Below are positions 19,801-63,927 of a stretch of 64,000 bases of DNA, piece by piece. A program made the position numbers and the translations under genes. Source of the stretch: Stentor roeselii (taxonomy: Eukaryota; Ciliophora; Heterotrichea; Heterotrichida; Stentoridae); assembly GCA_006503475.1 (NCBI GenBank), contig RSEH01000134.1:60745-124744 (forward strand), in the 5' to 3' direction. Each line of letters begins with the position of its first letter. The stretch's first letter is position 1. The notes under the pieces were generated by a model that was not told the origin of the DNA, did no database searches, and was given only the letters and a program-made list of their open reading frames with translations.

Positions 19801-20966
19801 CGGAATTTACTGAAAAAATGAGACAACAGGTAAAAAATAAGAAGGTTGAGAAGTTTTCGTTGAACTATAAAAGCTCGAATTATGAAGAAAACATGTTGTT
19901 TGTACTGATCAACTCACAATCAAGTGTTTTCAGTCAGATTCTCGACGTGATCGAAGGGGTGAAACGATGTGAAATGGAAAAAATAGAAACTATTAAAAGT
20001 TTTGATATCATTTTGCTTATTGTAGGGATCGGGATCCTTGCAAGTATTCTTCTAGTTATCGGAGTTTTTCTAATGTCCATCGATAAGGACTTGAACATGG
20101 TCTGGGGTTTTTTGTTTAAAAGGATGCAGTTTGCGGTAATTGGTGTAAGGCAAAAGGTAATTGACCGTCTGGCTCATTATCATGACAGGGCCGAGTACCT
20201 TGAAGTGGATTCTGAAAATATTCGTATAAAAAGTCCATTAAAGCACAATTTCCACCATTCAATCCGTTATTTGAAAGTCATTTCGATACTTTTTATATCA
20301 GCTTCTCTCATCTACATAATAAACTCTTTCGTATTCGACTCTTACATCTGTGAACTTTTAACGTTTAAACCGAAGCTCATCACAGATTTCATTGAAAAAC
20401 GTATCTGGACTAACAACTTGGGTTTTTACTCTCAAGAACTTCTAGTGAGCCAAACATCAGCAGGGTATTCAAGTGTTTACAAAGGCCAAAACTATCTACT
20501 TGGCCTATCAGATGGAGTATCTTTATACTCTTCTCGTCTTCTAAGTGATTTTTCACTTTACCGTCAGTCCTTGATCCAAGAACTGGTATCATCTTCAGTG
20601 TTAAGAGATCTAAACGACCGAATGCAAAGCAGTCACAACTTTCTCGAATACGGTTTAATCACAGGAATCGATTTCTTCGTTCAAGAGTCAAATAACCTGA
20701 TCAACACAAACTATTCCCAGTCCTTAAGCGCCTATCACGTGATGTTGAGTACTTTGACATCAAAAAGTGAAGTTTTGCTGAAGTCGATAGTATCTGATTC
20801 ACAAGACTCAGTAACTGAATTCGTTTCTTATCTTGTGGCCTTCACAGTGATTGCTTGTTTTGGTGTCAGTCTTTTGTATGTTTTCATTTATAGGCCTATG
20901 CTTGACCAGGAGACTGAAGTGCTGAAGGGAATCACGAAGCTTTTGACTATCATTCCGAATAACTAA
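16896..20966 (+). CDS. TmcB-like multi-TM PAS-domain protein, copy A
   Basis: CDS join(16896..19436, 19452..20966), 1351 residues. The N-terminal third has six or seven membrane segments opening with QHIQFFWYYDMK. It is followed by a soluble helical region like the repeats of TmcB/TmcC proteins (FKCQHIMLTAC... RGGKLVTRMS) and a PAS-like domain (about 535-645) with GKILFHNQNFLNFLGYT. The C-terminal third has four more membrane segments bracketing two likely extracellular helical regions and a cytosolic loop (VWGFLFKRMQFAVIG). The layout suggests a sensor or receptor, but ligand and output are unknown. Copies B and C lie at 34-43 kb on the other strand. Copy A is the most divergent, and its single intron is at the same place as that of copy C. 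It ends 31 bp before the Vps18 start. TmcB naming is by similarity of layout and moderately sure. Confidence 0.82.
19437..19451 (+). other. 15-nt intron in TmcB-like copy A
   Basis: The sequence is gtaagttccatgtag, a phase-0 intron. Splicing continues TKIIMIVS into IFLIISSNLG, completing the first membrane segment of the C-terminal block. The final TAG of the intron is an in-frame stop if it is retained. Confidence 0.92.
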
Positions 20967-37300: not shown

Positions 37301-38336
37301 TTAAAGGCTCTTTTAGGGTTTTTCTTAGAGATAGCTCAAACATTTCAAAGCTTTTTCTTTTCGATTTCGAGATTGGGGGAATGATTTTCAGACGATAGTT
37401 TATTATTGAATGAGAAAAAAATCCAATTAGTGGAATAGAAAATATTGTCAAGACAAAGGTTAATACTGAGTTATTGAAAGTGTATCCAAGCCAAAAGAAT
37501 AAAGACATAGAAGCACACCCAAGCTGAGTGGATAACTTGATGCTATTAACCACAGCTGAATAGTACGGAACATAATAAATCATCAATAGTGATGTCCCTG
37601 AGTACAAAAAAAAAGCAATTCCAAGGTAAGTATAGTAATTCGTTAACTGAATACTTGTAAAAAAGTAAGAATTAACCAAGTAATTTAATTTAACCGCATA
37701 ATCTGCTTTCGCATGAATTTTTCGATTTTCGTAAAAGTCCTCACTTGGATATCTAATCTCATAACTGCAAGTTTCATAAATAAAAGTCAAAACAATCAAA
37801 AATAAAATAACTAAAACACTAAGAACTTGCCCATATATTCCAAAGTCCACCTTCGATGCAGGCAATTCGCTCGGATATTCGACGACCAATCCTTTCGGGT
37901 TTTTCGAGTATTTAAAAATAACAAATAAAAGTATGCAAGTTGGAATGAACAAGTACTCAGCGATCAAAGTTATGAACATTTTGGCGATTGCAAGAAGCAA
38001 GATAGGGGTATTTTTATTAAAAATTTTCATGATCAAAATTGCAAGAATGATTAAAAAGACAAAACCTATCATCACCGCTTCAAAGATCAAGAACTCGTTT
38101 ATGTACCCAAAGGCTGTCACTGCTACGTCAACTGAAAGTAAGTTGATACTGTTCCAAAATGAGTAGTAGATGTCCCAATGCTTCACCGGCAAGTTTGGAT
38201 ACCAGAAAAATTGGGAATTTTGAGCAAGGATTATCAGCTGGTTTAAGAAAACTATCAACAAATTAGAAGATTTTTTCTTGAACGGCCAAATGTTGACTGA
38301 AAAAATCAAGTAGCAGAACTCGTATACAGTTCTCAT
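34308..38336 (-). CDS. TmcB-like multi-TM PAS-domain protein, copy B (no intron)
   Basis: This 1342-residue protein is a close paralog of copy C just upstream. The N-terminus begins with AQNSQFFWYPNLPVKHWD, then six or seven membrane segments (about 75-330). A helical TmcB-type region follows, with CYQVFKCKKIIRTIC and SLMNGILNNSKRGKKLI. A PAS-like domain (about 539-645) contains GKVVFCNEEFLELLNFSG. A Ser-rich cytosolic linker (about 730-815) precedes four C-terminal membrane segments near 822-846, 1009-1033, 1097-1120 and 1287-1309. The two long loops between them are helical and probably outside the cell, a layout reminiscent of sensory receptors. Unlike copies A and C, the first C-terminal membrane segment is encoded without interruption, so the intron was cleanly lost or never gained here. 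Confidence 0.85.
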   Translation of the reverse strand: MRTVYEFCYLIFSVNIWPFKKKSSNLLIVFLNQLIILAQNSQFFWYPNLPVKHWDIYYSFWNSINLLSVDVAVTAFGYINEFLIFEAVMIGFVFLIILAILIMKIFNKNTPILLLAIAKMFITLIAEYLFIPTCILLFVIFKYSKNPKGLVVEYPSELPASKVDFGIYGQVLSVLVILFLIVLTFIYETCSYEIRYPSEDFYENRKIHAKADYAVKLNYLVNSYFFTSIQLTNYYTYLGIAFFLYSGTSLLMIYYVPYYSAVVNSIKLSTQLGCASMSLFFWLGYTFNNSVLTFVLTIFSIPLIGFFSHSIINYRLKIIPPISKSKRKSFEMFELSLRKTLKEPLNHSLLFTSMKKNFKSSKSRLIWVLQANFSQEYLNNSTLSLNKITIPNPIGFNFPDCYQVFKCKKIIRTICSDDSVGFKILDFFKKFQEVKEKDHEFCRNYLKFLNDFSEKTVSLRKLKQSIRKLVVSMQIVNHSYQIIDNQFPGAYQIKKCYGSLMNGILNNSKRGKKLISEASSLKNLSQGSKRSELSYGRSNFIIEGNKKNFGKVVFCNEEFLELLNFSGDLPDDLHLSVILPDTFYVLIKKQLIGFLKSSCSSIVIQNSKFLFLDKNGFIRECYMKIENISDGENSFFWFVLDPDLNERKEIALLSDFGVILERSKNFDVKLTGKDFDVKGNLISSFIEEFSMNRKKFDQPRHLPHSELIDGSRYYLISSLKIFQKTAIVIYLIDDENLHETKKSKTVLGENQLFSSQICKKSQAGNKNHLNYFEPSSEDSKTKKDLQKVSRKSVLLSSETFESTQSNLRKSKEMKSSIFSFRFAKYLTNISVLVLICIIIGIFTNIYLEINERSNIETLNSMQDALISLEFLVFSIRAVDIYHSTNLDMGFKVEDIEKELNNLSSIQVKLKKEKENLVSCEAYSHLYEQKVNSWIFTQELTQKSSNVISLIDSFVITTEKIIKKVKSKGSYNALMIELVYSLYFSLNSHLLNTSSEFISCEHEKLKKSSTRQKILFYSGTGLSIFAFILTCLFTFLNRKNVNLLWELLRFQVKSSSKLVRESVLERLLEYHFDNEIVTDVEEAEGVEMKRIVDHFFSYILNFSLICLMSISIYLLVNFYFFPDIIAVLSTYSQLMMRLEHLKSLTLTMNFFTVESFLEKTDQSLNILNKSSYVLKPSGQILNKTYEELHIYHNEIEKAASFLFINQKFENLIHGKNNLKPASVRIGLIPNQDFLITESYYLSSNFSAKNSELYEFASGVQTSTSMISDLKDYCKSSALSMLNSMKRDILVFSLISAALLILFTNQLYIKSLNKEVEVIHSIVSLVELFPTLTLRQNRLGKISS

Positions 38337-38979: not shown

Positions 38980-41900
38980 TTAATTACTAAAGTGGAGACC
39001 AGTATTTGTTGAGCGTTTATTTGAAATCGGTACCAATTCGATGATATCGATTATATTATAAATTATTTCAATTTCTTTATTCAAGTATCTATGATAGCAG
39101 AAGTAGTTCAAAGTAATTAAAATAATGAAGCAAAACCCACAAAACAAACTAAAATCCCTTATTATATAATTGAGAACATCATCAGAGGACTTTTTAGCCA
39201 TCCCGAATAAATCTTCAATAACAGAACATGACTCTAAACATTTTTCAATGAATAATGATATCACTGATGAGTCAACATCAAAATAGCTAACAATAAACTG
39301 AGACTCCTGTATCAAATAATCCTGAACAGTCACAAGTCCTAATTTAGACTTTGTTAAACTTGATCGACTATCACCAAGTAACAGATCTTTAAACTGACTA
39401 TTAGTGAACCAGTATTCATCTTTATCATAAATATGAGAGTGGCATTTTTGCATTTGATAAACATTCGAATCAAGCATCTTTTTACTAGAAAACAACACAT
39501 AACCATCTTCTGTCTTGAAGTAAAGAGAATCCTTATGAAAATCCAAATGAGATTCCACAGTAAAAAACAAAAAACTAATAGTTAAAGTCCTCAATTCCTG
39601 TAAACTATTTAAGTAAGAAGGACGAGCCTCTAGAGCTTTAAATATATAAGGATAAAAATAATAGTTGGTCATTGAGTACATCGCTATGCAAACAGTGCAA
39701 ATAAAAGAAAACCTTATAATATACCTGATAAAATGATTCACAATTTTGATACTATTCAAGTTTTCCTCTTCATAGTTTTCTCTGATCTCTTCATTTTCGT
39801 AGTGATGTTCATTTAATCGTGACATGATTGCTAACCGAATATGAAGAGATTCAGTTTTCACCTGCATTCTAAGCAGCTCCCAGAGTAATTTAATATTTCC
39901 TTCAACCAGGTACATATAACAACAAGTGATCAGTAAAATAGCGATAGAGGTAAAAATTCCAACCATATAAAAAATATTCTGTCTTTTTTCTGAACTCTGT
40001 AGTTTTTCTTTTTCACATGAAATAAATTCAGCTCTTGCTTGAGTCAACTGAACCTCCAAACTTTGATGAATAGAAAAAACCAGATCTCCAAGTAAAATCG
40101 TGAAACTTTTATTTTTTTCATATTCTTTTAAAATATTTTGCCCTGTGTTCACAATAAAATTGATAACCTTCATAGGATTCCCTGTTTTTCGCTTATAACT
40201 TGAGCTGAATTCCCAGTAGCTGATGTCTTCTTCAAGCCTATCTTTTACACCTTTGCAGATTTTCAAGGTTGACTGGAGATTTAAAAGTTCTTCATTGAGT
40301 GACTTGAGTTTTTCAAGTTCTTGACTGATACTTTCAGTTGAAATGTTCAGATTTATGTGAGAGTCCTGAGAAATTTCAAGAGTTCTTAACATGAAACCAA
40401 CACTTTCTAAAGAGTAGCTTATTCTTTGAATATTCTCTAAAATATTTTCTTTCATTTTTTCGTTGATTTCTGAAAAAGCATTTCCCATTATTCCAGCAAA
40501 AATGCAGATGAGAAGACCGACCTAAATAAAAAATACTGTAAATGTTGTTAAGTACTTTGAAATCTTAAAAGCTCGAAGTGAATCTTTCATTTCTTTGGAA
40601 GTCCTTAAGTTGTTGTGGTTTGATGATGAAGAAGATGAAGCACTTGCTAATCCGAATTTACTTGTCAAGTTTTTTTCCCCAGTGAAGGTTTTTTCTGCTT
40701 TTTTTTGATTCTCTTCTAGAAATTTTACCTGATTTTTAAAGGTTTTTCGTGTTTTTGATATGAAAATGCTCTGATTTTCCAATAAATAAATCTCAGTGTC
40801 TTCCCACTGTTGTTTAGATTCTTCTTGATCAGTGAAATAAAGAACCACAATAGAAGTATCCATAATAGAATGTTTTTTAAGGATGTAAAAAGTTGAGTCA
40901 TTTTCAGCTGTTTTGGGTAAAACTATGCAACGATCGAAATAACTTGATTCTAGAGAAAGTCCTTCAATGAACTCTTGAATGAACAAACCTTTAAAGGTAA
41001 CTTTTTCGTATTTGAATCTTTTTTTAAACTTTTCACTGTGTTCAAGGATTTGTCCTGATTCATTCAAAATCGCAAAGCCTCTTGATTTGATAATGACAGG
41101 GTCGATTAGGAACCAGAAAAAATTTTCAAAACCAGAAGAAATATTTTCAATATTCGCAATGCATTCAATTAAAAACCCGTTTTTATCAACCAGATAAAAC
41201 CTGTGATTTTTCAAGATTTCATTTGAAACACTTGAAAAAGTAAAATCTTTCGAAATTTTCAAGAACCAGTCACTTAAAATTTTCGGTAAAATCATTGATA
41301 AGTGTAGATCTTCTGAGAAATTTAACGGAAATCTCAATAAATTTAGAAGATCTTTATTGAAATAAATAAGTTTTGCAGAGTGGTCATTTAGAGATACTAC
41401 AAAATTGCATCTTCCAGTACAAAATTCAGAGTTTTTATTGAGATGACTGATACTTTTCAGTCCCTCGGCTTCACTCATCATTTTTTTCCCTTTGCGATGG
41501 TTGTTAAGCAGCTCAGTGAGTAAAGAGCCATACAAGTCTTTGACTTCTGCACTATCAGGGAACCGTTTACTAAGTTTTTTATAATTTTCTTTTAATTTCT
41601 CGATGTTTTTCACAAGACTGCTTATTTTTAACTTCAGACTGGTCAGTGAGACAGTCTTTTCCAAAAAAACATTGAAAAATTTTATGTAATTCTTGCAAAA
41701 ATCATAGTCTTTTTCTTTAGTTTTTCTGAATTTCTTGAAAAATTTTAAAATCTTGAAGCCATTCGAGGCTGTTGTGCATGATAATTGAATAATTTTTCGA
41801 CATTTAAAGACCTGATAACAATCTGGAATGTTAAAACCTTTACTGCTGGCCAATGAAATCTTCGTTAAGGCCAAGCTGCAGTTGTTAAGATTGTAAATTG

Positions 41901-43020
41901 AAAAGTAAGCTTGTAACACCCAAATAAGTCGACTTTCACTAATTTTAAAATTTTTTTTCATGTTTTTGAAAAAATTTGGATTTTTTTCAGAGGTTTTTAA
42001 AAGGTTTCTTAGAGAAAGTTCAAATTTTTCAAAACTTTTTCTTTGAGCCTGGGCCAAGGGAAGGACAAGTCGCAGTCGTAGGTTGACTATAGAGTAAGAA
42101 AAAAATGCGATAATAGGGCAAGTGGAGACTGAGAGAAGGAAAGTGATTCCTGAGTTTTCTAAAGTGAAACCAAGCCAAAAGTAAAAACATGTCGACATAC
42201 AAGATAACTGCGACCATAACTTCAAATAATTAATTGCTTTGGAATAATAAGGGACATAATAAATCACTACTGCTGTTGTAGTCGTGTAAAGTAACAGCGC
42301 AACGCAGAGATAAGCGTAATAGTTAGTCAGTTGAATATTTGTAAAAAAGTAAGAATTAACAGCATAGTTCAATTTTATTATGTAATCAACTTTTGCGTGA
42401 ATCTTTCTATTTTCCATAAAATCCTCTTTCGGGTATCTGATATCATAATTGCAGGTCTCATATATGAAAGCAATAAACAAAACAAATACAATGACAACAA
42501 CTGCTAAAACTTCTCCATATATCCCGAAGTTTACTTTGGACCCCGGCAAGTCATTCGGGTATTCATCCACAAAGTCCTGAGGACTTTTCGAGTACTTGAA
42601 AATGACGAAGAAAAGAATGCATGAGGGAATAAAGAAAATTTCTGAAAGAAGTACAAAAAAAACCTTTGCGATGATTAAAAATATTTTAGGGACACTTTTT
42701 TTTAAGCAGTTCATTAGAAGTATAAAGAGGATGTTTGAGAAGATAAAACCGATCATCACTATTTCAAAGATGATGAACTCGTTGATGTACCCGAAGGTGC
42801 AAACTGCTACATCCACTGAGAGTAGGTTTATACTGTTCCAAAAGGAGTAGTAATTTTCCCAGTTCTTCACTGGCAACCCAGGGTACCAGAAGAACTGAGA
42901 GTTTTGCGCTAGCAAAGTAATCTCGCATAGAATAAGCAGAAAAAGGCTGATGGTTTTGCTTTTTGATGTTATGATCTTGATTGAGAAGATAGAGTACCAA
43001 ATTTCATAAACCCAATCCAT
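38980..43020 (-). CDS. TmcB-like multi-TM PAS-domain protein, copy C
   Basis: CDS complement(join(38980..40521, 40537..43020)), 1341 residues. Nearly every segment lines up with copy B: AQNSQFFWYPGLPVKNWE at the start, the same N-terminal membrane block, CYQVFKCRKIIQLSC, SLLTELLNNHRKGKKMM, and a PAS-like domain with AKLIYFNKDLLNLLRFP. After a poly-Ser linker comes the C-terminal block of four membrane segments, with the conserved cytosolic LLWELLRMQVK between the second and third. The intron falls inside the first segment of this block. B and C probably arose by tandem duplication, and A is an older relative. Function as a membrane sensor is inferred from architecture. Confidence 0.85.
40522..40536 (-). 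other. 15-nt intron in TmcB-like copy C
   Basis: On the coding strand it reads gtattttttatttag, phase 0. Splicing joins KYLTTFT to VGLLICIFAG. The terminal TAG stops translation if retained. It is at the same place as the intron of copy A. Confidence 0.93.
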
Positions 43021-52118: not shown

Positions 52119-54539
52119 CTAATTACTATCTTTATCATCCCCAAACTCCAGCTGATTTTCTTCTAAATCAAAATTATCATCACAAAGCGAGTCATTAAGT
52201 TTTGCTCTTTTAGTAGGAGTCATGAGTTTATCATCATCAATATCAAGACAATTTCCACTTTTACTCATCATATGATTGATGGCGTCTAAATGATAAGAAG
52301 GCGATTCCCCAAAAGCATAAATTCTTTTACTTCTAGGTGTCGCATAAGGTGACCGAGCAGGACTATTAAGCGAGTATCTATTTTCACTTGGAGAGTAGAT
52401 AATCATTGGAGGCGGCAAAGAGAACTTCAAAGGGCTGCTAGGGTTCAAGCAAGGTATTCGAGGGTCATTTCTGGAAATATTTCCAGTTTTACTCGTGAGG
52501 GACATGAGGTAATTTTTCATATACTTTACAAAAATATCATTGTAAAATCGAATAATATCTCCAGTCGTTGACCCTTCAAGCCTAACACATCTAAAAAGTC
52601 TTCCATTGTCATTATAAAACTCAGTATACTTGCTGATCAAATTGTTAAACGTGACATTAAGTCCCTTAGCCTTACAAACTCCATAAATCGTGCAAATAAT
52701 AATCTGGTCCATTTCCCGATTAATAAACAATTCCGTCTCTTCACTCAGTCCATTCTTCATCACAGCCCAAATATCTTCCCTGACCTCTTCACTGATATTC
52801 AGCATATTCCCCAAGTCATAAATGCGAAGGGCGCAATAAGCAAGAACCCTTCGACAAAACATCAAAATAGCCGGATGCGTCAAATCTTTCTTACTGCTAA
52901 GATGCGCCCGGATATGCCCGGCAATAGGCGAGTTTTCAGTCCAGGCCATGCTAGAAATGACTTTGGCTTCTAAACTTTTAAAGTGCTGACGAAGTGAAGA
53001 AGGAATACGTGAATCAAATTCTAAAAAATTTTTCATTAGTTTCCAGGTGTCAAAGGCGGAAACAGAGCAGATGTCGAGGACTTCAGAGAACTCAAGGGCG
53101 GTGATGTTGTTAACGTAAAGAACTGTCTCGATGCAACAGACCAGCAGGGCTCTGTAGAAAGTTTCATTTTTTAACACGTTGATCAGCTGGTCTTTCGTCT
53201 CTGATCGAAGCTCCTGTTGTTTTTCTTCGTTTTTAAGAAGTTCTGTTAACACCTTGAAGAAAAAGCGAAGAAGGGAGTCAGGGGTTAACTTGTTGGAAGG
53301 GATTGAAAGGTAAGGCTTTGATGATGATTGGAACTTTTGGATGTTGTTTAAAGAGTTTTTGATTAGGTCTTTGAATTGCTTGATGATTGAAAGAAAGCCG
53401 CTGGAACTGGAAGTGTCCATTTTTTCAAGGATTTCTTCTGGGACTTCGCAGGAGATGCCTTCGATGTGGCTGTTTATCCAGTTTTCTAACTCGTAGGAAG
53501 TTATCATTCGTGAACAGGGAGGAAATGTTTTTATTGAGTAGGGACTGTTGGATACTAAGGATGGGAACTTTATGTCTTGAAGTCGAGATGTCATTGAAAG
53601 GCTCTCGTCGTCTTCGTAGTCTAACATTCGCTTGTTGCAGAATCTTTGACTGTTTTGAACTGAGTCTTTTACTTTTAAAGGGGAACCTAAATCGCTTTCT
53701 TGCATTAGAAACTCTTTTTCGTCGATGTCGTCGGGTAGTAGTTTGCTTGAGTACTCGGAACTTACGCTTTTTATGTTGAACCAGAGGTGGTTTTGATCTA
53801 GGATACCTTCGATGTTGGAGGAGTTGGCATAAGTGCCCCTAAGGTGATTATGTTCTTTAAATTTCTCAATCATCATCCTCAAATGATCCGAAGCCAACTT
53901 AACCTGTTCTTGAGAAGCTTTAATAGTGCTACACAAGAACAAAAGTGGGTCTCCACCAACTTCACCTCCAACAGGCAAAAGTGCTAAAAACACATGAAAA
54001 GTTCCAAGCAACATGCAAGCACATTCAACAATATCACATCTTCTCTGAAGTATATTAATCCGAGCAAGAATAAAAATAATCCACATGAACCTCTTCACCT
54101 GTCTTAAGTTATCAGTCCCAAGTCTAAGTTTCGAGCAAACATCTTCAAATTTATTGTAAAGAGTGAGAGAAAACGCATAAGAATTGATAATCGAGTTGAT
54201 ATCTGGAGATGCCCGCTCATCCATCGGAACAAATTTGATGAATTCTTTTAACTTCCGAATAAATGAATGAATGTCTGTCTGGTGCGGGCCTGACAACAGC
54301 GAGACTAGCGACAAAGGACTTTCACTGTCGTTATTGCTTCGCTTTTTCATGATTTTATAAGCTGTCAGAATCGCGCATCGCACAATTGATCGACTTTTGC
54401 TTTCTTCCCAGAGCTGGTCTTGTGATTTGAAGTCTTTTAATAACCGCTCTGCTGTTGACTTGGTGCTTGGGTCAAGACTTAGACTACTGCAGAGGTCATT
54501 TAGCAAGGTCTGGGAAAGAGTGATTTCGCTGTTTTTCAT
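52119..54539 (-). CDS. Retinoblastoma-family (pRb-like) pocket protein
   Basis: This 806-residue protein is a pocket protein that represses E2F-driven S-phase genes until cyclin-CDK phosphorylates it. The N-terminal cyclin-like region (about 1-250) includes FMWIIFILARINILQRRCD. Pocket A (about 345-520) includes LKNETFYRALLVCCIETVL, matching the Rb HMSLLACALEVV helix. Pocket B (about 550-690) includes FCRRVLAYCALRIYDLGNM and DQIIICTIYGVCKAKGLNV, very close to the Rb DQIMMCSMYGICKVK. The LxCxE-binding side includes FYNDIFVKYMKNYL. The C-terminal tail has clustered SP/TP sites (SLNSPARSPYATPRSKR, LMTPTKRAK), the expected CDK targets. Length is close to human RB1 (928). The start lies 127 bp from the small divergent gene. 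One of the firmest calls in the window. Confidence 0.93.
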   Translation of the reverse strand: MKNSEITLSQTLLNDLCSSLSLDPSTKSTAERLLKDFKSQDQLWEESKSRSIVRCAILTAYKIMKKRSNNDSESPLSLVSLLSGPHQTDIHSFIRKLKEFIKFVPMDERASPDINSIINSYAFSLTLYNKFEDVCSKLRLGTDNLRQVKRFMWIIFILARINILQRRCDIVECACMLLGTFHVFLALLPVGGEVGGDPLLFLCSTIKASQEQVKLASDHLRMMIEKFKEHNHLRGTYANSSNIEGILDQNHLWFNIKSVSSEYSSKLLPDDIDEKEFLMQESDLGSPLKVKDSVQNSQRFCNKRMLDYEDDESLSMTSRLQDIKFPSLVSNSPYSIKTFPPCSRMITSYELENWINSHIEGISCEVPEEILEKMDTSSSSGFLSIIKQFKDLIKNSLNNIQKFQSSSKPYLSIPSNKLTPDSLLRFFFKVLTELLKNEEKQQELRSETKDQLINVLKNETFYRALLVCCIETVLYVNNITALEFSEVLDICSVSAFDTWKLMKNFLEFDSRIPSSLRQHFKSLEAKVISSMAWTENSPIAGHIRAHLSSKKDLTHPAILMFCRRVLAYCALRIYDLGNMLNISEEVREDIWAVMKNGLSEETELFINREMDQIIICTIYGVCKAKGLNVTFNNLISKYTEFYNDNGRLFRCVRLEGSTTGDIIRFYNDIFVKYMKNYLMSLTSKTGNISRNDPRIPCLNPSSPLKFSLPPPMIIYSPSENRYSLNSPARSPYATPRSKRIYAFGESPSYHLDAINHMMSKSGNCLDIDDDKLMTPTKRAKLNDSLCDDNFDLEENQLEFGDDKDSN

Positions 54540-55001: not shown

Positions 55002-57056
55002 TTAGCGAATGTATTTACTTACTTTTATCATTATTTCTTCTGCTGCTGTTGGCTTCGAAATGTAGTCCACCATCCCGGCTTCTTTGCAGATGATTTTGTC
55101 TCGTTCGCTTGAGTAGGCTGTGTGAGCGATTATGCTTGGAGCTACTTGGATCACTCCATCAGCTGCTAATTTTAAGATCTTCTGGCTTGATTCCCACCCG
55201 TCCATCACTGGCATGTTGCAGTCCATGATGCAGCAGGTTATTGGCATACCTCTTCGGTCTGACTCGATTATAACTTCGATAGCTTGAAGCCCATTAGTTG
55301 CTTCCAAATAAGGGATTCCTTTACGTTTGAATGAGTTACTGAGAAACATTCGGATTATCTCATCGTCATCAACTATTAAGAGCTTTGCGTAGCTAGGACT
55401 TGACTGCTTATAATAAGAAACCTTTAGTTGCACCTGTCCGGGTGACTCTGAAGGTATTTCGCTATCTGGTTTTAAAGAATTTGCACTCGTATCTTCATTT
55501 CCATCCCCGATAGTAAATTGAAATAAACATCCAATTTCTTGTGGTAATATCAAAAGTTTAGAATTGAAATACTTTAAAATTTTCTTACATATATAAAGCC
55601 CAATCCCGCTAGTTCTGCAGTTAGGATCTTCACAAATTTTAAAATTTTTCGATATTTGACTCGATGAAAGCCCTAATCCTGAATCAGAGACCTCGATTTT
55701 AATTCCACGAGAAGTCCTAAAAGCTGAAAGCTGAATGAACCCATTTTGCGTGAATTTCAAAGAATTGCTCATCAAATTGATTATCGCTTTTTGTAATCGA
55801 TACTGATCACTCGAAATCATTTTAGGAATATTTGAGTCATAATGAAAAATCAGTTCAAGTCTCTTATAAAAGGCCTGTTGTCGAATCAAAGACAAGCAAG
55901 TCTCAAGAGCTGCTTTCAAATCAAAATCCGAAAAATTTAAAGTAAATTTGCTGAAACAAAGCTCAGAGTAGTCTAAAATATCATTGAGGAAAAACTCGAC
56001 AAGACTAGTGCAGGTCCTAATCTGCTGGAATTTTTCTCTGACAGCTTCAGTGACCTCGTTTTTCAAGTCATCAATAATGAGAAGGATTCCGTTGATCGGT
56101 GTGCGAAATTCATGAGAAATCGACCTGATTATCTCGTTTTTTGTTTTATTTGCAGAAGCGATTCTTTCAAAATTGAGTATTTTCGTGACGTCTTTGACAG
56201 TAATCATGTAACTCAAGGACTTTTTCCAGAAGATCAGCTTCAAACACCACTCAAACTTGGCCTCTTCACAAACTGAGATCCCAAGAGAAGATGAACAGAG
56301 AGATTCAGTTGAACTAGTTTTTATTTTATTGATTAAAGTTGTATCTTCTACTTTTGTTTCTGATAAAAAGTCCAGGATATCCTTTTCTTTTATGATAAAA
56401 TCGATAAAGTCATTTTTGTATTGAAGTTTCATGTCTTTGTCAAGTATTAACAAGCCTTGAGGGAAAATTTGCAAAAGAGTTGAAAGTTCTTGTAAAGCTT
56501 TACTTTCTTTCTTTTTAGCTTTTTCAGTGTTTTTCAGGAAAAGTCTTTTGTCTTTTTCAAAGAGGTACCAAATTAGGAGGATCACAAAACTGATCATGAA
56601 AGATGTGACTGTTTTAGGAAATTCGAAGGATTCGTTGTAAAAGTACCAAAGAGTTATGTGTTTTAAGGATATTAGGATATTCGCTTCAGTGCTTTCGAAG
56701 ATGTTGCACTGATATAAAAGGGTTAATAAAGTTGACTCTAAACAAAAGAGGATTGATTCTTGCTTTGATTCTATCAAGGAACTAGACCTTAAACCAAAGT
56801 TAAGAATTTCTATCAAAGAATACATGATCAGTTTTCGGAAAGCTGAATGAACGAATTTTAGTTTTTCTAAGGATAAGTAAAGAAAAAGCATCATCATAAA
56901 TTTTAGTATTTCAGATGATCCAAAGGCTTTTTCGAATGATACGAATATGCTTGTTAAAATTCGGAGAGTGAATGATATTGCCAAGATGATTCGTAGTGTC
57001 CTGCAAAATCTGTCGTACGACATCAAAAAATGTTTGTTCCACCAAGATGAATTCAT
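55002..57056 (-). CDS. Hybrid sensor histidine kinase with receiver domain
   Basis: This 684-residue protein has several N-terminal membrane segments (about 15-180, including FMISFVILLIWYLFE). A PAS-like segment follows (FPQGLLILDKDMKLQYKND, about 195-225). The HisKA dimerisation helix has phospho-acceptor His315 in SISHEFRTPINGI. The ATPase domain has N box IINLMSNSLKFT, G1 VSDSGLGLS and G2 TSGIGLYICKKIL. The C-terminal receiver has acidic VDDDE, phospho-acceptor Asp612 in IMDCNMPVMDG, Thr in AHTA and Lys in ISKP. Every catalytic residue is present, so autophosphorylation and transfer to the receiver are expected. A separate histidine phosphotransfer protein would be needed downstream and is not in this window. 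Upstream lies the 2-kb desert. Confidence 0.94.
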   Translation of the reverse strand: MNSSWWNKHFLMSYDRFCRTLRIILAISFTLRILTSIFVSFEKAFGSSEILKFMMMLFLYLSLEKLKFVHSAFRKLIMYSLIEILNFGLRSSSLIESKQESILFCLESTLLTLLYQCNIFESTEANILISLKHITLWYFYNESFEFPKTVTSFMISFVILLIWYLFEKDKRLFLKNTEKAKKKESKALQELSTLLQIFPQGLLILDKDMKLQYKNDFIDFIIKEKDILDFLSETKVEDTTLINKIKTSSTESLCSSSLGISVCEEAKFEWCLKLIFWKKSLSYMITVKDVTKILNFERIASANKTKNEIIRSISHEFRTPINGILLIIDDLKNEVTEAVREKFQQIRTCTSLVEFFLNDILDYSELCFSKFTLNFSDFDLKAALETCLSLIRQQAFYKRLELIFHYDSNIPKMISSDQYRLQKAIINLMSNSLKFTQNGFIQLSAFRTSRGIKIEVSDSGLGLSSSQISKNFKICEDPNCRTSGIGLYICKKILKYFNSKLLILPQEIGCLFQFTIGDGNEDTSANSLKPDSEIPSESPGQVQLKVSYYKQSSPSYAKLLIVDDDEIIRMFLSNSFKRKGIPYLEATNGLQAIEVIIESDRRGMPITCCIMDCNMPVMDGWESSQKILKLAADGVIQVAPSIIAHTAYSSERDKIICKEAGMVDYISKPTAAEEIMIKVSKYIR

Positions 57057-59089
57057 TTATTAATAAGAGATCTTAATATCTAAAAGATGAACTGTTTCTT
57101 GAATATTTATCATATTCATATATTAGTAATACTCTTATTTTTATTATTATTTATATTTTCATAATATTCAATCCTTTACCGTTACTTAAATAATCTAATA
57201 TCCTGAATGGCCCCAGTTTTCATCAGTTTGAATTGAGGTACATTGAAAATATATATTATGAGCATCTTAGTAACAAGTTGGGAAAATCACTATTGATAGC
57301 ATGAAAAGAAATTTAATAGCTTTCAAGTTTCTTATACAATAAACCCTGATATATCTTTATTACAATCAGGAAAATAAACTGAATTATAAAACAATATAAT
57401 AATTGGCCTTTTTTATTGCATCTCTGCTAGATTTAAACCTTGATTAAAAGAAAAACAAAATTTTCCACATCGACAAAAAAAATTTTGATGAGAATCTTTG
57501 AGTTTTTTTGGATAAGACAAAAAGAAGATGATGATAAGGATCTCTCCATGAAAACTCATAAATTCAATTGAAATTCTTTCAGCGCAAGTAAAACAGTGGT
57601 CTAATTTCACTTCAACTAAAGTACTTATTTTACTCATTTCTCTGGAAGGAAAAATTAAACTTTTTCGGATTATCGATCTTTAAGTGCAAAGAAATGTTTC
57701 TTGAACTTGTTTGACAAACATTTAATCTGTTTTTCTGGAAACTTATGAATGTGCTTGTATTTTAAGAACCTACTTGAGATAAATAGCACTTATTTCCTTA
57801 TTAACCTTTTTTCGAAGTACTTCAGTAAGTTCAAATCGGTAAATGACGATTCTAAGATATTATTCTTTTTATGACTATTTCTTTGTCATTTGATTTAGTT
57901 TGAAGTGTATTGTAAACTTTTATTGTATTGTTCGATTCAGGATTAGCATTCCCTTTAGAAATAATATGAAACGTTTGCAATAGTTAAATGTTTTAAGTGT
58001 TTTTTACCAAGGTATGAAGGTTCTTGAGATTAGGAATTAGGCTGGAATCTTATATTATAACAGTTCTGAGCTCTAAATATACTTTCCTAAAGGGTATACA
58101 TCATTTCTTTTCGAATCGTTTAGCATTAAATACTTTAGTTATAATATTCAAATAATTCATGATTTAATTTCTAAGGAGTTCCTACCGTTGATGAAGAATA
58201 CTTCTATCATCGATTAACTGAAATTATGTTATTTTTATGATACTTATAAAATATTGAATAATTTTCTTACAGTAAAGAAATGCATTTCAGTGATTCAATA
58301 AAATATCGATATTAAAAAAGAATTATCTGATTCAAGCAAGGAAATTTTAAAGATTATAAAATTAAAACAAAAATGAAAATTCATCTAAAACAATACCAGA
58401 ATTAATAGAAAAAAGGTCTTCATTGTAATTCTTTAAATCACTGTAAATCAAGGATCATATCCTTATTATTCAAAGTATATTAATTCATATCATAAAAATA
58501 TAATAATTTTTTAAGGGTATCATTTTTTTTAAAAAAATAAATTTTGGGCTTATTTTATTTAATAAAATATTTTAGGAACATTAATTAGCTTAACTCATAT
58601 TAATTACTAAGAATTTATTGAATAATATTTTATTGTAAATTTAAATCACATCAAAAATAAAATAATTGCTTTTATTAGATGAAATTAAATAAGATAAATA
58701 ATTTTATTTTATTTCTTCAATATTAAAAAGTTTTAAGTGTTTAAATTTTTAATCAAGTATTAATCATCTTAATTTTATTTGAATAATATTCCTGAATAAT
58801 AATAAACTATAATAATGATATATTTAAACTTGATTAATTGTTACTGATGATATATATTTTTTATCTTCATTTATGATTTATACCAAGATATTTTAAGTAA
58901 TTCCTTTAAAACAAAATTCATCATAAATTAAATATTTCCTACTATAATATATTTATTATTATTTTTATGATTAATTTAACTTTTTAATGTAAAAAAGTTC
59001 TTTGCAGAAAAATGAATTTCAAATAACATTTCTAAACAAGAAAGAACCAAAAGCTAGATGATATATCAAACTAATTAATCCTCAACTAA
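57057..59089. other. 2-kb AT-rich gene desert
   Basis: This is the largest gap in the window, at least three times longer than any other. The part next to the histidine kinase is moderately AT-rich and carries the possible gene remnant listed separately. From about 58250 to 59050 the sequence is almost entirely A and T, with long runs such as tttttttaaaaaaataaa. I found no tRNA, no long repeat and no convincing ORF. It may hold a promoter, a replication or matrix-attachment element, or unexcised germline-type DNA; none of these can be shown from the sequence. Confidence 0.6.
57413..57910 (-). pseudogene. Possible gene remnant in the AT-rich desert
   Basis: On the minus strand, protein-like stretches lie in different frames and are broken by stops. 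From about 57885 one frame reads NNILESSFTDLNLLKYFEKR, then a stop, then FLKYKHIHKFPEKQIKCLS and on to KDR at a second stop. Another frame (57637-57413) is open for 74 codons with two cysteine groups (DHCFTCAER and FFCRCGKFC). The composition is less AT-rich than the surroundings. No 15-nt intron removes the stops. It could be a decayed gene, or the 74-codon piece could be a small real gene; the cysteine spacing vaguely recalls the zinc modules of the neighbouring RING-IBR genes. Confidence 0.3.
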
Positions 59090-60784
59090 TTATTCCCTAA
59101 TCGATTTTCTCATAAGTTTGTATTGTTCACATACGGAATTTCCAAAAAAATGAGGAGTCGAAGAGCAAGTAGGACAAAAATTGAGTCTACAAAATTCACA
59201 AAAAATTTTGGTATTTTCCAGATTCTCATCAATATAATTCCTATAACTTCTAACTTGGCATACAGGGCATATCGCTAAAGTATAAGACCAATCCAACAAA
59301 TTGGATTTGATTCTCGCCTCTTTGCTGAGATAATTAAGATTAGTAAAAAATCCGAAGTTGATACTTTCACTGCATTCAGCACAGCCTAAAAAATTTATTT
59401 TTTTTTTACATTTTTCTAACTGCCTTTCATATTGTATTTTGATGCATTTTTGATGATAGAAATGCCCACATGGCGAAATCTCTAAAGTTGTTGAAATGAT
59501 TTCTCTGCAAACAGCACAAATTTTAGAGTTAATGTTTACTTCAGGTATAAATGATTCGATGTTTATTTTTGAAGTGTGAACTGAGAAATGCAAGGTTGGA
59601 TTGTAAAAGATATGATTTTTCGTGCTTTGATCAGAAATTAAATTATGATTCTGCAAGCTTGAGGTACTTTGATTAATGGAGACTTCTACAGAATTACCTG
59701 GACTATTTTCACATGATGAAGAGATAGTGCTCGAGTAACTCATGACAGAACCTTGTCGAAAGAAACAACTACTTCTTTCTTCATGAAAGCTCTCCATTAA
59801 ATTTATAGTGGCTGATGATTCATCCTCAGGAGATTCTATATTTAAAATACGATTTCGAGAATTGATTGATTTTGACATAATACTTTTTCTGTTTATTTCT
59901 TTAGTATCTGATAAAAATCTGATGTTTGTAAGAGTCTTGAACTTTACCTTTAATGGATTTATGACTTCATCTCGAATTTGATTCAGTTTTGAATATATTT
60001 CTTTTATTGTTGATGAAGTGCATATTTTAGGGTCAGGACTTAGCATGTCTTTAATTAGATTCTTTAAACTTTCAAGGTAGTTGAATTTGTCTAATTCTTG
60101 ATCTATAAAATTATTTAGATTTATAACATCCATTTTGTGAAATGAAGAGAATATTTTCGCTGTTGAAAACTCAAAAATTACTTTTGCAAATGAATAAATA
60201 TCATATCTATAGAGGTTATTTTCGCATAAGCTCTTACCGTCCTTTAGAGCTTGAATAAGCTCAGGAGCCATGTATTCTTTAGTTCCTACAACTGTGCAGT
60301 ATTCCCTCTCTTCTTCAAACTTCTGACATTTTTCAAAATCTCCAATGACAGGCCTAAGCCCTTCAGTAAGGAAGATATTTTGAGGTTTAATATCTCCATG
60401 TGCATATCCCAAGGCATGTATCGACATCAGTTGTTTACATAGAGTTAAACTTATATTCAAAACATCAGTCAAAGGTTCAGGATTCCCTCGTCGATTTCTG
60501 ATGTACTCATACAAGTTTCCGAATGGGCAAAACTCTATGCACATGTACTTATAGTTTGTTGTTTTATCAGACCAGTAACCGATAAATTTTAGTATCTCAT
60601 GCGAAGATTGGGACAATCCTTGATGAACGTTAATCTCTCTTGGTTTCATATCAGTTTTGAATATCTTGATAATGAAGAGCTGGGTTAATGAATCTGAGAG
60701 GTTTTTGGATTCAACTAAATGAACTTCTTTTAGTTCATCCTGCTTGAATATTTTTTTCGATTGATAATGAATAGGGTTCATCAT
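59090..60784 (-). CDS. Kinase-RING-IBR fusion protein, single kinase domain
   Basis: This 564-residue protein has an N-terminal kinase-like domain (about 30-275) with ATP-site Lys in FIIKIFK, catalytic loop AHGDIKPQNIFL (Arg of HRD replaced by Gly, Asp kept), metal-binding IGDFEKCQKF (DFG is DFE, Asp kept) and VGTKEYMAPEL. The glycine loop is not recognisable. The closest feel is NEK-like. After a Ser-rich linker (280-415) comes a RING-H2 type finger starting at Cys423: CAVC, CGHFYHQKC, CAEC. Next is a conserved spacer (LSKEARIKSNLL), then an IBR-type finger: CPVC, CEFC, CPTC, His and Cys. The protein ends 15 residues later, with no RING2. A ubiquitin E3 function with a regulating kinase domain is inferred. 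It lies 92 bp downstream of its larger paralog. Confidence 0.85.
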   Translation of the reverse strand: MMNPIHYQSKKIFKQDELKEVHLVESKNLSDSLTQLFIIKIFKTDMKPREINVHQGLSQSSHEILKFIGYWSDKTTNYKYMCIEFCPFGNLYEYIRNRRGNPEPLTDVLNISLTLCKQLMSIHALGYAHGDIKPQNIFLTEGLRPVIGDFEKCQKFEEEREYCTVVGTKEYMAPELIQALKDGKSLCENNLYRYDIYSFAKVIFEFSTAKIFSSFHKMDVINLNNFIDQELDKFNYLESLKNLIKDMLSPDPKICTSSTIKEIYSKLNQIRDEVINPLKVKFKTLTNIRFLSDTKEINRKSIMSKSINSRNRILNIESPEDESSATINLMESFHEERSSCFFRQGSVMSYSSTISSSCENSPGNSVEVSINQSTSSLQNHNLISDQSTKNHIFYNPTLHFSVHTSKINIESFIPEVNINSKICAVCREIISTTLEISPCGHFYHQKCIKIQYERQLEKCKKKINFLGCAECSESINFGFFTNLNYLSKEARIKSNLLDWSYTLAICPVCQVRSYRNYIDENLENTKIFCEFCRLNFCPTCSSTPHFFGNSVCEQYKLMRKSIRE

Positions 60785-60876
60785 TTAATTGGAATTACAA
60801 ATGGAAATAGATTATTTTCAATCAAAACTAATAATTTTTCTTTACCTACAAAAATAATATATCAATTCACATTCTA

Positions 60877-63800
60877 CTAGCTGTAATCTCGACATAAACT
60901 ATCCATATTTTGATTCAACCTCAACTTTTTAAACGGAGAACACCTTCCGAAATGTGATCCTTTTTCTGAGCAAAAAGAACAATACTTCTTTTTACATTTC
61001 GAACAAATGATATTTTTATCTCTAAGTTTCGTACTAATCGTAAACTTTTCAGTAGTATCTCCACATTCAGGACAAACAAATTTAATATCCGCTAATCTCT
61101 GAAGATTTGCATTAGTCCTTGCCCTTTCACTTAAAAACCTCATTTCTAAGAAATCTTCGTAGTTGATAGGAGTAGTGCATCTATGGCAATTCAATTTTTC
61201 ACTTTTTCTGTCTAGTCTCTCAAGAATTTTTCCGAAGGAAATTTGTGCACATCGATGATGATAACCATGAAAGCATTTTAACAAACAGAAGGGCTCAATT
61301 AGGTTTTGTTCACAATGCGCACATGATGTGTCCCTCGAAGTTTGGGATAAAGGGTGGATGAGGATTGACTCTCGTTGTTGAACATTCATGGACATGTACT
61401 CAGGTATAACGTAATGAGATTCAAGTTTTGAACTGGGTTCACTTTGATGGGAATGAAAGGATTCGTGTTGTTGAAGTGATTTATTATGTGAAAGGTCACT
61501 TGATTCTTCTTTTCTCTCGGAAGATTCAGATGATGCCTCTTCAGAGATTTCTTTTTTTCGATGATTTGATTTAATCGTCGAGCTAGACTTGCAGCTTTCA
61601 TCAAATTTAAGATTTTTTTGATTTTCCTTCAACTTTTTATCACTTTTTACTTGATTTTCTTCAACGTTTTTTATTTCTTCGAATTTCATTTGTGGCTTAT
61701 GTTTCAATTCTTTTACTTTTTCTTTTTTTTCTTCTAGTTCATTTTTTTTTACCTTTTTTTTCTGATCTTTGTCTTTCACTCCTCGATCATCAATTTTTTT
61801 CACTTCTTCAAATAAGAAAGAACTATCTTTATAAGAAGAATCTTCAACAAAATCAGATCCTTTTTCAACAAACATCGAATTAGCAATAACACTATTCTTA
61901 GAATTCAAATGATCAACAAAACTTTTATTTTCTACCCTTTCCAAGCATTGTTTTACCCATTCAATAACAACCTCAACATCCAAAACTATTCCTTCCCTCA
62001 AATGATAAAATCCCTGTAAAACCTTTTTAAATTCTTCATATTTCTCTAAATTTTTCCATAATCCTTCAAAATTTTTTCGTTGTTCCAACTCATCCGCACA
62101 AAATCCTTCAAAAGAACTGAAAGATTTGTGTAAATTTAAAAAAACCTCTCCAATTGCTTGAGTATCTTCTTGAAATAAACCTTTTTGACTTTGAGAGTTG
62201 ATTTTTTCACATAAGCTAAATTTTCCAAGTTTCGGAAGATTTTTAGAATCAACAAAAATGCTTCGAAGGTTTATTCCTCGATGAACGAAATCGTTTGAAT
62301 GTAAAACTTGAAGGTTTTCTAAGATTTTTAAGTAAAAAGTCAAGGCTTCAGTTGGGGTCAGTTTAGGTTTGGTTAAAAGGAAGTCTTCAAGGCAGCCTTT
62401 AGAACAGAACTCGATCTGCATGAAGAAAAAAGGGTCTTCTTGCCAGTAGGACTTTAAAGTTACTAGGTCGGGACTCAATGGGGAAATAGTTGAGTGGATT
62501 TCAATTTCAGCGGGGACATAAGGAGTTTTAAATCTCTTGATTATATATTCAATGCTATCTTCGCTAGAAGTTATTAGAAAGACACATTTTTCATTATTCT
62601 CTGAAATGGTTTTTTTTATAAAAAACTCAAAATCTGGAAATTTTTTGAATTTTTTCAAGTTTTTTTTTAGGATTTTTGAATCATCTGAACTCTTTTCTAG
62701 ACTTTCTTGAAATTCATTTTGTTTACTGTTTGTTGATCCTAGAGATATATAAGTGTCATATATATCTACTTTTTGGGTTTTTAAAAACATTGCACGAGGC
62801 CTGAAAGGTTCTGGGAAGTTGATCTTTTCATTTGAACTTTGATCAAATTTTTCCTTTTTTTCCTTTTTTTCCACTTTTTCCTTTTTTTCCACTTTTTCCT
62901 TTTTTTCCTTTTTGTCTTTTTTTTCCTTTTTGTCTTTTTTTTCATCTTTTCCTTTTTTTTCATTTTTTTCCTCTTTTTCCTCTTTTTCCATAGATTTTAA
63001 TTTCATATCCTTTCCACCCTCTCTAAATTGCGAAAGTTCCATATTCTGACATTTCATTTCATCACTCGACAGTTTCCTCTCTGAATTTCCAGTGATTTCT
63101 TCATAACTTTCAGAGCAAGGCCTACAATTTTTAATCTCCTGAAGTTCAGTGATAACATCATAAATCTCAATAAGCCGTTCCTTAGAAGTACAAATCATTT
63201 TTTTAACAAGTTTAATAAACCTCTTCGGAGACTTCACTATTTCCAAGTTATTTTCAATAAAATTTTTAATCTCTCCATCAGAATTTTTATTTAAATCAGG
63301 ATAAAAACTGCAAGTTGCAAGTTCAAAGAAAATCTTTCCTAAACTCCAAATGTCTTCTTGATAAGGAAACGTTTCAACAGGCCTAGTTCTAGAAAAGTTT
63401 TTAACCAGTTGATTACTCATGTAATGCATGTCTGATTTGATAGTATTCAAAATTTTCTCATCCTTTTTCTGTACTTTTTTACAAGCTCCAAAACTACCGA
63501 GCTTCAACTCTCCAGACCTTATCCGAAAAATGTGCTTTGGGTCGATTTTTCGATGACAAATGGAATTTCTATGAAGAATCTCCAGGGACTCTGAGACTTG
63601 CAGGCAGTTTAAAATCACTTTTTCGATTGGGTCTGGATTTTTATGTCTTTTTGCGATGTAGGAATGCAAATCACCTCCTTCACAGTACTCCATGCAGAGA
63701 AAGTGACAGTTGTCTTTTGACCAGCTTGAGTAGAACTGAAGGATTGAAGGGTGAAAGCTGGAAAGCTCTTTGTGGAATTGAATTTCTGAAGGAATTTCTG

Positions 63801-63927
63801 AGGAGAGTAGCTGTTTGATTACAAATCTGGAGGGAAGCTCTGGACATGTCCCTTCTGCGAGGATGATCTTTTTGGGACTTGAATTTAAAGTTTGGAGTTT
63901 TTTGAAGCTTATTTGTACGGAAGACAT
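60877..63927 (-). CDS. Double pseudokinase-RING-IBR fusion protein
   Basis: This 1016-residue protein is a larger paralog of the gene at 59090. Kinase-like domain 1 (about 15-265) keeps Lys in FVIKQL but has HRKIDPKHI for HRDxKPEN and LGSFGACKK for DFG. Domain 2 (about 430-640) has IIKRFK, HRGINLRSIF and LGKFSLCEK, so both catalytic and metal Asp are missing in each. Between them is a Lys/Glu tract (about 319-360). Another charged, Ser-rich linker precedes the RING-H2 finger at Cys869 (CAHC, CFHGYHHRC, CHRC). The same spacer follows (LSERARTNANL), then an IBR finger (CPEC, CSKC, CSFC, His, Cys) and 15-20 terminal residues without RING2. Two pseudokinases likely serve as docking or regulatory platforms for an E3-like zinc module; this is inference. 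Confidence 0.85.
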   Translation of the reverse strand: MSSVQISFKKLQTLNSSPKKIILAEGTCPELPSRFVIKQLLSSEIPSEIQFHKELSSFHPSILQFYSSWSKDNCHFLCMEYCEGGDLHSYIAKRHKNPDPIEKVILNCLQVSESLEILHRNSICHRKIDPKHIFRIRSGELKLGSFGACKKVQKKDEKILNTIKSDMHYMSNQLVKNFSRTRPVETFPYQEDIWSLGKIFFELATCSFYPDLNKNSDGEIKNFIENNLEIVKSPKRFIKLVKKMICTSKERLIEIYDVITELQEIKNCRPCSESYEEITGNSERKLSSDEMKCQNMELSQFREGGKDMKLKSMEKEEKEEKNEKKGKDEKKDKKEKKDKKEKKEKVEKKEKVEKKEKKEKFDQSSNEKINFPEPFRPRAMFLKTQKVDIYDTYISLGSTNSKQNEFQESLEKSSDDSKILKKNLKKFKKFPDFEFFIKKTISENNEKCVFLITSSEDSIEYIIKRFKTPYVPAEIEIHSTISPLSPDLVTLKSYWQEDPFFFMQIEFCSKGCLEDFLLTKPKLTPTEALTFYLKILENLQVLHSNDFVHRGINLRSIFVDSKNLPKLGKFSLCEKINSQSQKGLFQEDTQAIGEVFLNLHKSFSSFEGFCADELEQRKNFEGLWKNLEKYEEFKKVLQGFYHLREGIVLDVEVVIEWVKQCLERVENKSFVDHLNSKNSVIANSMFVEKGSDFVEDSSYKDSSFLFEEVKKIDDRGVKDKDQKKKVKKNELEEKKEKVKELKHKPQMKFEEIKNVEENQVKSDKKLKENQKNLKFDESCKSSSTIKSNHRKKEISEEASSESSERKEESSDLSHNKSLQQHESFHSHQSEPSSKLESHYVIPEYMSMNVQQRESILIHPLSQTSRDTSCAHCEQNLIEPFCLLKCFHGYHHRCAQISFGKILERLDRKSEKLNCHRCTTPINYEDFLEMRFLSERARTNANLQRLADIKFVCPECGDTTEKFTISTKLRDKNIICSKCKKKYCSFCSEKGSHFGRCSPFKKLRLNQNMDSLCRDYS
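62840..62990. repeat. Lys/Glu-coding microsatellite inside the pseudokinase-RING gene
   Basis: The + strand is a run of T-rich units (tttttcctttttt, with some tttttgtc) that on the coding strand reads as repeated Lys/Glu/Asp codons, giving KKEKKDKKEKKE-type sequence (residues about 319-360). It is a low-complexity linker likely to vary in length between strains. Confidence 0.85.

Follow-up and report, generated by a model that had tools for sequence, protein, structure and literature searches.

RING1 of the RBR ubiquitin ligases, which include parkin, ARIH1 and HOIP, has a C3HC4 ligand set, and the first pair of the canonical IBR finger is C-x4-C. A RING or RING-like finger and a kinase domain occur in one chain in plant KEEP ON GOING (KEG) and in animal MEKK1; in KEG the RING stands first and is followed by the kinase and then by ankyrin and HERC2-like repeats, in MEKK1 the finger is N-terminal and an active kinase C-terminal, and neither is known to have an IBR-like finger. 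KEG is an E3 ubiquitin ligase (E3) (PMC8948693), and RING2 of the RBR ligases carries the catalytic cysteine (PMC11354881). The kinome of Dictyostelium is described as having dual-domain kinases, some predicted to be inactive, and lineage-specific families (PMC1420674), and 2057 kinase genes are reported for Stentor coeruleus (PMC6811501). Here we describe two adjoining minus-strand genes, P1 and P2, in a 64,000-nucleotide stretch of the Stentor roeselii genome (GenBank assembly GCA_006503475.1, contig RSEH01000134.1, positions 60,745 to 124,744; hereafter the window, in the coordinates of which all positions are given), each encoding kinase folds followed by a C-terminal zinc module.

P1 and P2 resemble KEG and MEKK1 in joining kinase and RING in one chain, but they place the kinase folds first and the zinc module at the C-terminus, and they add an IBR-like finger. 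With the RBR ligases they share a RING, a spacer and then a C6HC finger of IBR-type spacing, but they have no RING2/Rcat and no catalytic cysteine, their RING ligands include two histidines, their second finger opens with C-x2-C, and kinase folds stand at their N-termini. P2 is like the Dictyostelium dual-domain kinases in holding two kinase folds in one protein, whereas the whole words RING and IBR are absent from the main text of that kinome paper (PMC1420674). The two proteins are, as they stand, a recombination of known domains, the parts being known and the combination unusual. Among the literature matches listed there was no kinase-RING-IBR fusion in ciliates, a comparison outside which the 2017 preprint of Reiff and Marshall (bioRxiv 168187) lies; by its title, this preprint reportedly treats the Stentor kinome and novel domain architectures, and it may already list the architecture of P1 and P2, which leaves the novelty uncertain.

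A preliminary description of the locus had named two adjoining minus-strand genes with one (P1) and two (P2) kinase-like domains in an unusual order, and this organization was borne out by the analysis. Both open reading frames (ORFs) are uninterrupted and lie 92 bases apart, PF00069 matched both proteins in full-length scans (for P2 in two stretches, E 2.2e-39; for P1 see Table 1), and the same domain order is held in one unbroken ORF by each. In BLAST comparisons, residues 33-272 of P1 matched P2 kinase 1 with 28% identity (E 3e-26), the P1 kinase domain matched P2 kinase 2 with 30% identity (E 5e-13), the two P2 kinase domains matched each other with 25% identity (E 6e-18), and the zinc modules of P1 and P2 matched with 29% identity (E 1e-17). 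Judged from these similarities, P1 and P2 are paralogues with a common order of kinase fold, linker, RING, 34-residue spacer and second C6HC finger.

The most likely reading, which we put forward tentatively, is that P1 and P2 are lineage-specific RING-type E3s or scaffolds docked through kinase or pseudokinase folds. Tandem duplication in a heterotrich ciliate would have produced the two paralogous multidomain proteins, the N-terminal kinase folds of which would serve mainly as docking surfaces, with that of P1 perhaps still binding and using ATP. The kinase folds would hold a partner or substrate, the RING would recruit a ubiquitin-conjugating enzyme (E2) loaded with ubiquitin, and ubiquitin would go straight from the E2 to the target or to P1 or P2 itself. 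No thioester relay is proposed, because no catalytic Rcat cysteine exists.

Table 1. Features of the P1 and P2 genes in the window (residue numbers refer to each protein)
Feature	Position	Strand	Description
P1 gene	59090..60784	-	single ORF, 564 aa; from the N-terminus, one kinase-like domain, a linker, the RING, a spacer and the IBR-like finger
P1 kinase-like domain (aa 1-272)	59969..60784	-	PF00069 E 3.7e-25; K40, E50, H129-G-D131, N136, D149-F-E, MAPE; without glycine-rich loop
P1 linker (aa 273-420)	59525..59968	-	Ser/Asn-rich; one candidate 15-nt intron at aa 312
P1 RING-H2	59372..59518	-	C423 C426 C439 H441 H444 C447 C468 C471; zf-C3HC4 22.3 bits
P1 IBR-like C6HC finger	59129..59269	-	C506 C509 C529 C532 C537 C540 H545 C552; PF01485 18.0 bits
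P2 gene	60877..63927	-	single ORF, 1016 aa; two kinase-like domains with charged linkers, then the RING, a spacer and the IBR-like finger
P2 predicted pseudokinase 1 (aa 1-264)	63136..63927	-	PF00069 E 8.5e-27 (aa 1-409); K38, E48, HRK..H, SFG
P2 predicted pseudokinase 2 (about aa 440-690)	61858..62610	-	PF00069 E 2.4e-14; K464, E474, HRG..S, KFS
P2 RING-H2	61177..61323	-	C869 C872 C885 H887 H890 C893 C914 C917; spacing as in P1
P2 IBR-like C6HC finger	60940..61074	-	C952 C955 C975 C978 C983 C986 H992 C996; PF01485 18.2 bits

Both C-termini (the last ~150 residues) carry sixteen Cys/His ligands in identical order, with the cross-brace RING pattern C-x2-C-x12-C-x-H-x2-H-x2-C-x20-C-x2-C in both, then 34 residues, then C-x2-C-x19-C-x2-C-x4-C-x2-C-x4/5-H-x6/3-C (P1/P2). 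Between C423 and C540 the two modules align gaplessly, with about 29% identity, and identical columns are concentrated at the ligands (15 of 16, against 23 of the 112 other columns; Fisher p 1.5e-8), the sole non-identical ligand column being the His of the IBR-like finger, which is offset by one. The full ligand pattern, composed with the P1 and P2 sequences already in view, occurred once per protein (P1 423-552, P2 869-996) and not at all in shuffles of each last 150 residues (0/200,000). The zinc ligands that had been said to show directly were therefore all present in both proteins, and the spacer that had been called fixed is of the same length in both.

The RING of P1 exceeded the curated cutoff of 21 bits for zf-C3HC4 (PF00097) when the last 150 aa were scanned alone (Table 1) and scored 17.6 bits, under that cutoff, in the full-length scan. 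Among solved structures, the paired P1/P2 zinc profile matched best, over 36 positions and at E 0.0022, the RING of the E3 synoviolin. RINGs that bind E2 typically have a hydrophobic residue separating the first two ligands, a Pro separating the last two and a basic linchpin after the last, and the first of these positions is filled in P1 by the hydrophobic V425. These matches and ligands support the identity of the RING, for P2 less strongly than for P1: the RING-H2 assignment of the preliminary description kept its ligands in both proteins and a P1 tail over the PF00097 cutoff, but P2 stayed under every Pfam RING cutoff.

Several results count against the docked E3 or scaffold. The P2 RING rose above no Pfam RING cutoff, either in the full-length scan or in its 154-aa tail (best, zf-C3H2C3 at E 0.091), and it has His, a non-hydrophobic residue, between the first two ligands; in both proteins, Pro is missing between the last two RING cysteines (CAEC in P1, CHRC in P2) and the residue directly after the last is not Arg or Lys (S and T). 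The AlphaFold2 model of P1 (three-row alignment; mean predicted local distance difference test score (pLDDT) 36.7, predicted template modelling score (pTM) 0.21) was too weak to show zinc folds, with a hairpin and a helix at the RING at pLDDT of about 48-63, and the model of the zinc module alone (two-row alignment; mean pLDDT 53.9, pTM 0.50) has a helix within the first RING loop, covering tail residues 10-17, unlike a RING. A Foldseek search with the latter model returned 110 matches at E up to 10, of which the best 50 were inspected, and none at E up to 0.001. Finally, the conservation described above rests on two sequences, because the collections tried yielded no relative. Neither model serves as evidence for zinc folds, and structure prediction, which had been suggested as a check on these folds, gave models too weak for either outcome.

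The same residues bear on a strong if, on balance, unlikely rival, in which the zinc module is not an E3 and would have a structural role, its two zinc fingers serving to dimerise or localise the protein or to bind ubiquitin, on diverged kinases and pseudokinases that act as scaffolds. The E2-contact and linchpin residues are mostly missing in both RINGs, more so in P2, no Rcat is present, and the P2 scores are as given above, all of which favour such a structural module, whereas RING ligands and spacings that stay alike between paralogues with about 29% identity overall, together with a P1 tail that on its own clears one RING cutoff, speak against it. The E3 role suggested in the preliminary description would be possible only as that of a RING scaffold, and several of the typical E2-contact residues are not conserved.

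No IBR was found at E up to 1 in the full-length Pfam scans of P1 and P2; the 150-aa tail of P1 gave 15.3 bits (E 0.022), and IBR did not appear for the 154-aa tail of P2 even at E up to 10. When the second fingers were scanned in isolation, PF01485 matched at E 0.0031 in P1 and E 0.0026 in P2, under its cutoff of 24.3 bits; in both, the match ran from position 9 to position 60 of the 65 in the profile and took in seven of eight ligands. As a control, all second-finger residues except Cys and His were permuted, and 3 of 38 such shuffles scored as well for IBR as the real fingers (one of 8 in one set was better, with 20.5 bits and E 0.00049, and two of 30 in the other reached E 0.0032). Within the set of 30, matches at E up to 1 were IBR in 12, ANCHR-like_BBOX in 9 and zf-B_box in 9. 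Because ligand-fixed shuffles also match IBR, the Cys/His spacing leans to IBR non-exclusively and the intervening residues add little.

These scores raise another possibility, which we consider highly unlikely, namely that the second finger has a different zinc fold, such as a B-box-like fold or a zinc ribbon, and that P1 and P2 combine a RING with an unrelated finger as TRIM-type proteins do. Some families indeed scored slightly ahead of IBR, namely zf-B_box (E 0.0014) and Zn_ribbon_IS1595 (E 0.00065) in P2 and FYVE_CARP1-2 (E 0.0018) in P1; zf-B_box and ANCHR-like_BBOX matched the second fingers of both paralogues, and TRIM72 chains aligned with positions 104-135 of the paired profile (E 4.3-5.4). 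The better-scoring families, however, take in only four or five ligands, and ANCHR-like_BBOX reaches seven in P1, though at E 0.023, whereas the IBR match covers 52 of the 65 profile positions with seven of eight ligands in both proteins and is the widest among families matching both. That IBR was also the commonest match of the ligand-fixed shuffles likewise argues that the spacing itself leans this way. We therefore call the second finger IBR-like at most, by its spacing; of the IBR claimed in the preliminary description, the C6HC spacing stands, but not a score that passes the Pfam cutoff or is beyond the reach of shuffles.

From the last finger ligand to the C-terminus, 12 residues remain in P1 and 20 in P2, and no RING2/Rcat lies in frame. 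No single removal of a 14-17-nt GT..AG intron in the last 400 nt lengthens either ORF by 60 aa, and tblastn and Pfam found no relative in the 2 kb downstream of P1. Because a RING2/Rcat with its catalytic cysteine is absent, P1 and P2 are not RBR ligases and the RBR transfer mechanism is excluded within them; the preliminary description had named RBR ligases among the nearest families and had missed this absence. P1 and P2 could work like the RING half of an RBR ligase, a putative role. The IBR is reported to support catalysis where RING2 is without its cysteine (PMC10778545), but we do not lean on this because RING2 itself is missing here.

That P1 and P2 descend from an RBR ligase whose Rcat was lost, with a partner supplying the catalytic cysteine in trans, appears very improbable. 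The succession of RING, 34-residue spacer and C6HC finger is the RING1-IBR order, and the isolated second fingers of both proteins match PF01485 at equal profile positions, as this history would have it, but the RING ligands are C3H2C3 where RBR RING1 has C3HC4, and the IBR match lies under the cutoff and is driven by spacing. Moreover, no RBR chain was present among the sequences of solved structures that matched at E up to 10, which numbered 22 for the paired profile and 2 and 19 for the second fingers, and two RNF216 rows (E 2.6) in the fold search with the weak model carry no weight.

A VAIK-type Lys and a helix-C Glu are present in all three kinase domains, which otherwise differ in their catalytic motifs. 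P1 has HGDIKPQN (HGD for HRD), DFE for DFG and MAPE and retains K40, D131 and D149; there is no GxGxxG within aa 1-39, and in the 400 nt upstream any single splice of 14-17 nt adds at most 12 in-frame residues. Where HRD..N is expected, P2 kinase 1 has HRKIDPKH and P2 kinase 2 has HRGINLRS, with SFG and KFS, respectively, for DFG. The VAIK, HRD and DFG motifs serve to predict kinase inactivity in the Dictyostelium kinome (PMC1420674), and by them the P1 kinase domain is possibly active, while both P2 domains are apparently pseudokinases because the HRD and DFG aspartates are absent. The loss of both catalytic aspartates in both P2 domains would fit a docking role. Of the kinase landmarks that the preliminary description had reported, P1 thus keeps Lys, Glu, HGD..N and DFE but not the glycine-rich loop, and neither P2 domain keeps the HRD and DFG aspartates.

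Solved-structure sequence matches were judged on the best 60 of 1428 (P1), 1639 (P2 kinase 1) and 1292 (P2 kinase 2). The top matches were MELK and Chk1 for P1, NEK7 and NEK2 for P2 kinase 1 and PLK1 for P2 kinase 2, and the single domains therefore resemble NEK, PLK and MELK kinases but differ from them in missing catalytic residues in two of the three. Since the best-matching family differs for each of the three paralogous domains, no kinase family is assignable, and the label NEK-like that had been used before suits P2 kinase 1 but neither P1 nor P2 kinase 2. A Trp (W71 in P1) is invariant across all three domains, and owing to it we considered a Wee1/PEK-like origin, which we do not claim: Wee1 chains were absent from the best 60 matches of each domain, with no search aimed at Wee1/PEK, and PKR chains were among those of all three domains and GCN2 chains among those of P2 kinase 2.

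A further-reaching version, which seems to us decidedly unlikely, would make P1 and P2 a heterotrich-specific E3 family in which tandem pseudokinases read a partner and a shortened, Rcat-free RING-IBR ubiquitinates it by direct transfer from the E2, with P1 and P2 as an active/inactive pair joining phosphorylation and ubiquitination within one protein. Quite apart from this version, the kinase-RING architecture of P1 and P2, if real and functional, would be a direct physical link from kinase-type recognition to ubiquitin transfer in one cell with a probably very large kinome. The zinc module, if real, would be a natural case of a RING and an IBR-like finger retained without the catalytic partner, and could show what RING1-IBR does alone.

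The linkers differ between the paralogues. The P1 linker is composed of 20% S, 11% N, 5% K and 8% E, and the two P2 linkers of 28% K and 22% E and of 18% K and 15% E, so that the 'charged linker' of the preliminary description is apt for P2 but not for the Ser/Asn-rich linker of P1. The candidate intron in the P1 linker came from a search for a GTA..TAG pattern of 15 or 16 nt, and the frame is open with or without its removal. Introns of 15 nt together with the standard code are a trait pointing to Stentor. In the window, removal of a 15-nt GT..AG intron lengthens two other genes by more than 500 codons each, and of the 24 ORFs that are closed and reach 200 aa, 12 stop at TAA, 10 at TAG and 2 at TGA. 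The genes at 16896-20966 (+) and 38980-43020 (-) are each interrupted by one 15-nt intron.

These introns, which account for two read-through joins in this genome, and the in-frame candidate within the P1 linker are what could be said for a gene-model artefact in which the kinase and zinc parts belong to different genes or splicing adds an Rcat. We regard this as extremely improbable: neither ORF has an internal stop, the paralogue retains the domain order, the splice search at the 3' ends gave no extension as described above, and the 2 kb downstream of P1 gave chance-level tblastn pieces, its sole Cys-rich frame being without Pfam hits up to E 5.

Relatives were sought by scanning with sequence patterns and checking the matches by tblastn. 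The patterns matched, in viral contigs, once for P1, 6 times for P2 and 42 times for the paired zinc module, and in prokaryotic genome contigs 88 times for the zinc module, with none of these confirmed; tblastn of the 150-aa P1 tail against phage records gave no match. This absence of relatives says little, because the collections were non-eukaryotic and the patterns nearly exact. The region downstream of P1 (57057-59089) is 2 kb of AT-rich sequence (22% GC) in which the longest stop-to-stop frame, at 57413-57679, has 88 codons. This Cys-bearing frame was rejected as a third copy: Pfam gave nothing up to E 5, and tblastn of the 2 kb gave only chance-level pieces (best E 0.12).

Elsewhere in the window, ARAGORN called a tRNA-Leu (taa) at 41960-42038 (+), antisense to a coding ORF, which the Rfam scan of the window at gathering threshold did not match and which is probably a false call. 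Three related large proteins with membrane-like stretches by eye are encoded at 16896-20966 (+), 34308-38336 (-) and 38980-43020 (-); the first has TmcB-TPR (PF25474) just over the cutoff and PAS under it, and the latter two are adjoining paralogues with 49% identity over 837 aa. A retinoblastoma-family protein with RB_A and RB_B domains is encoded at 52119-54539 (-), and the gene at 55002-57056 (-) encodes, in a eukaryote, a hybrid histidine kinase that combines HisKA, HATPase_c and response-regulator domains.

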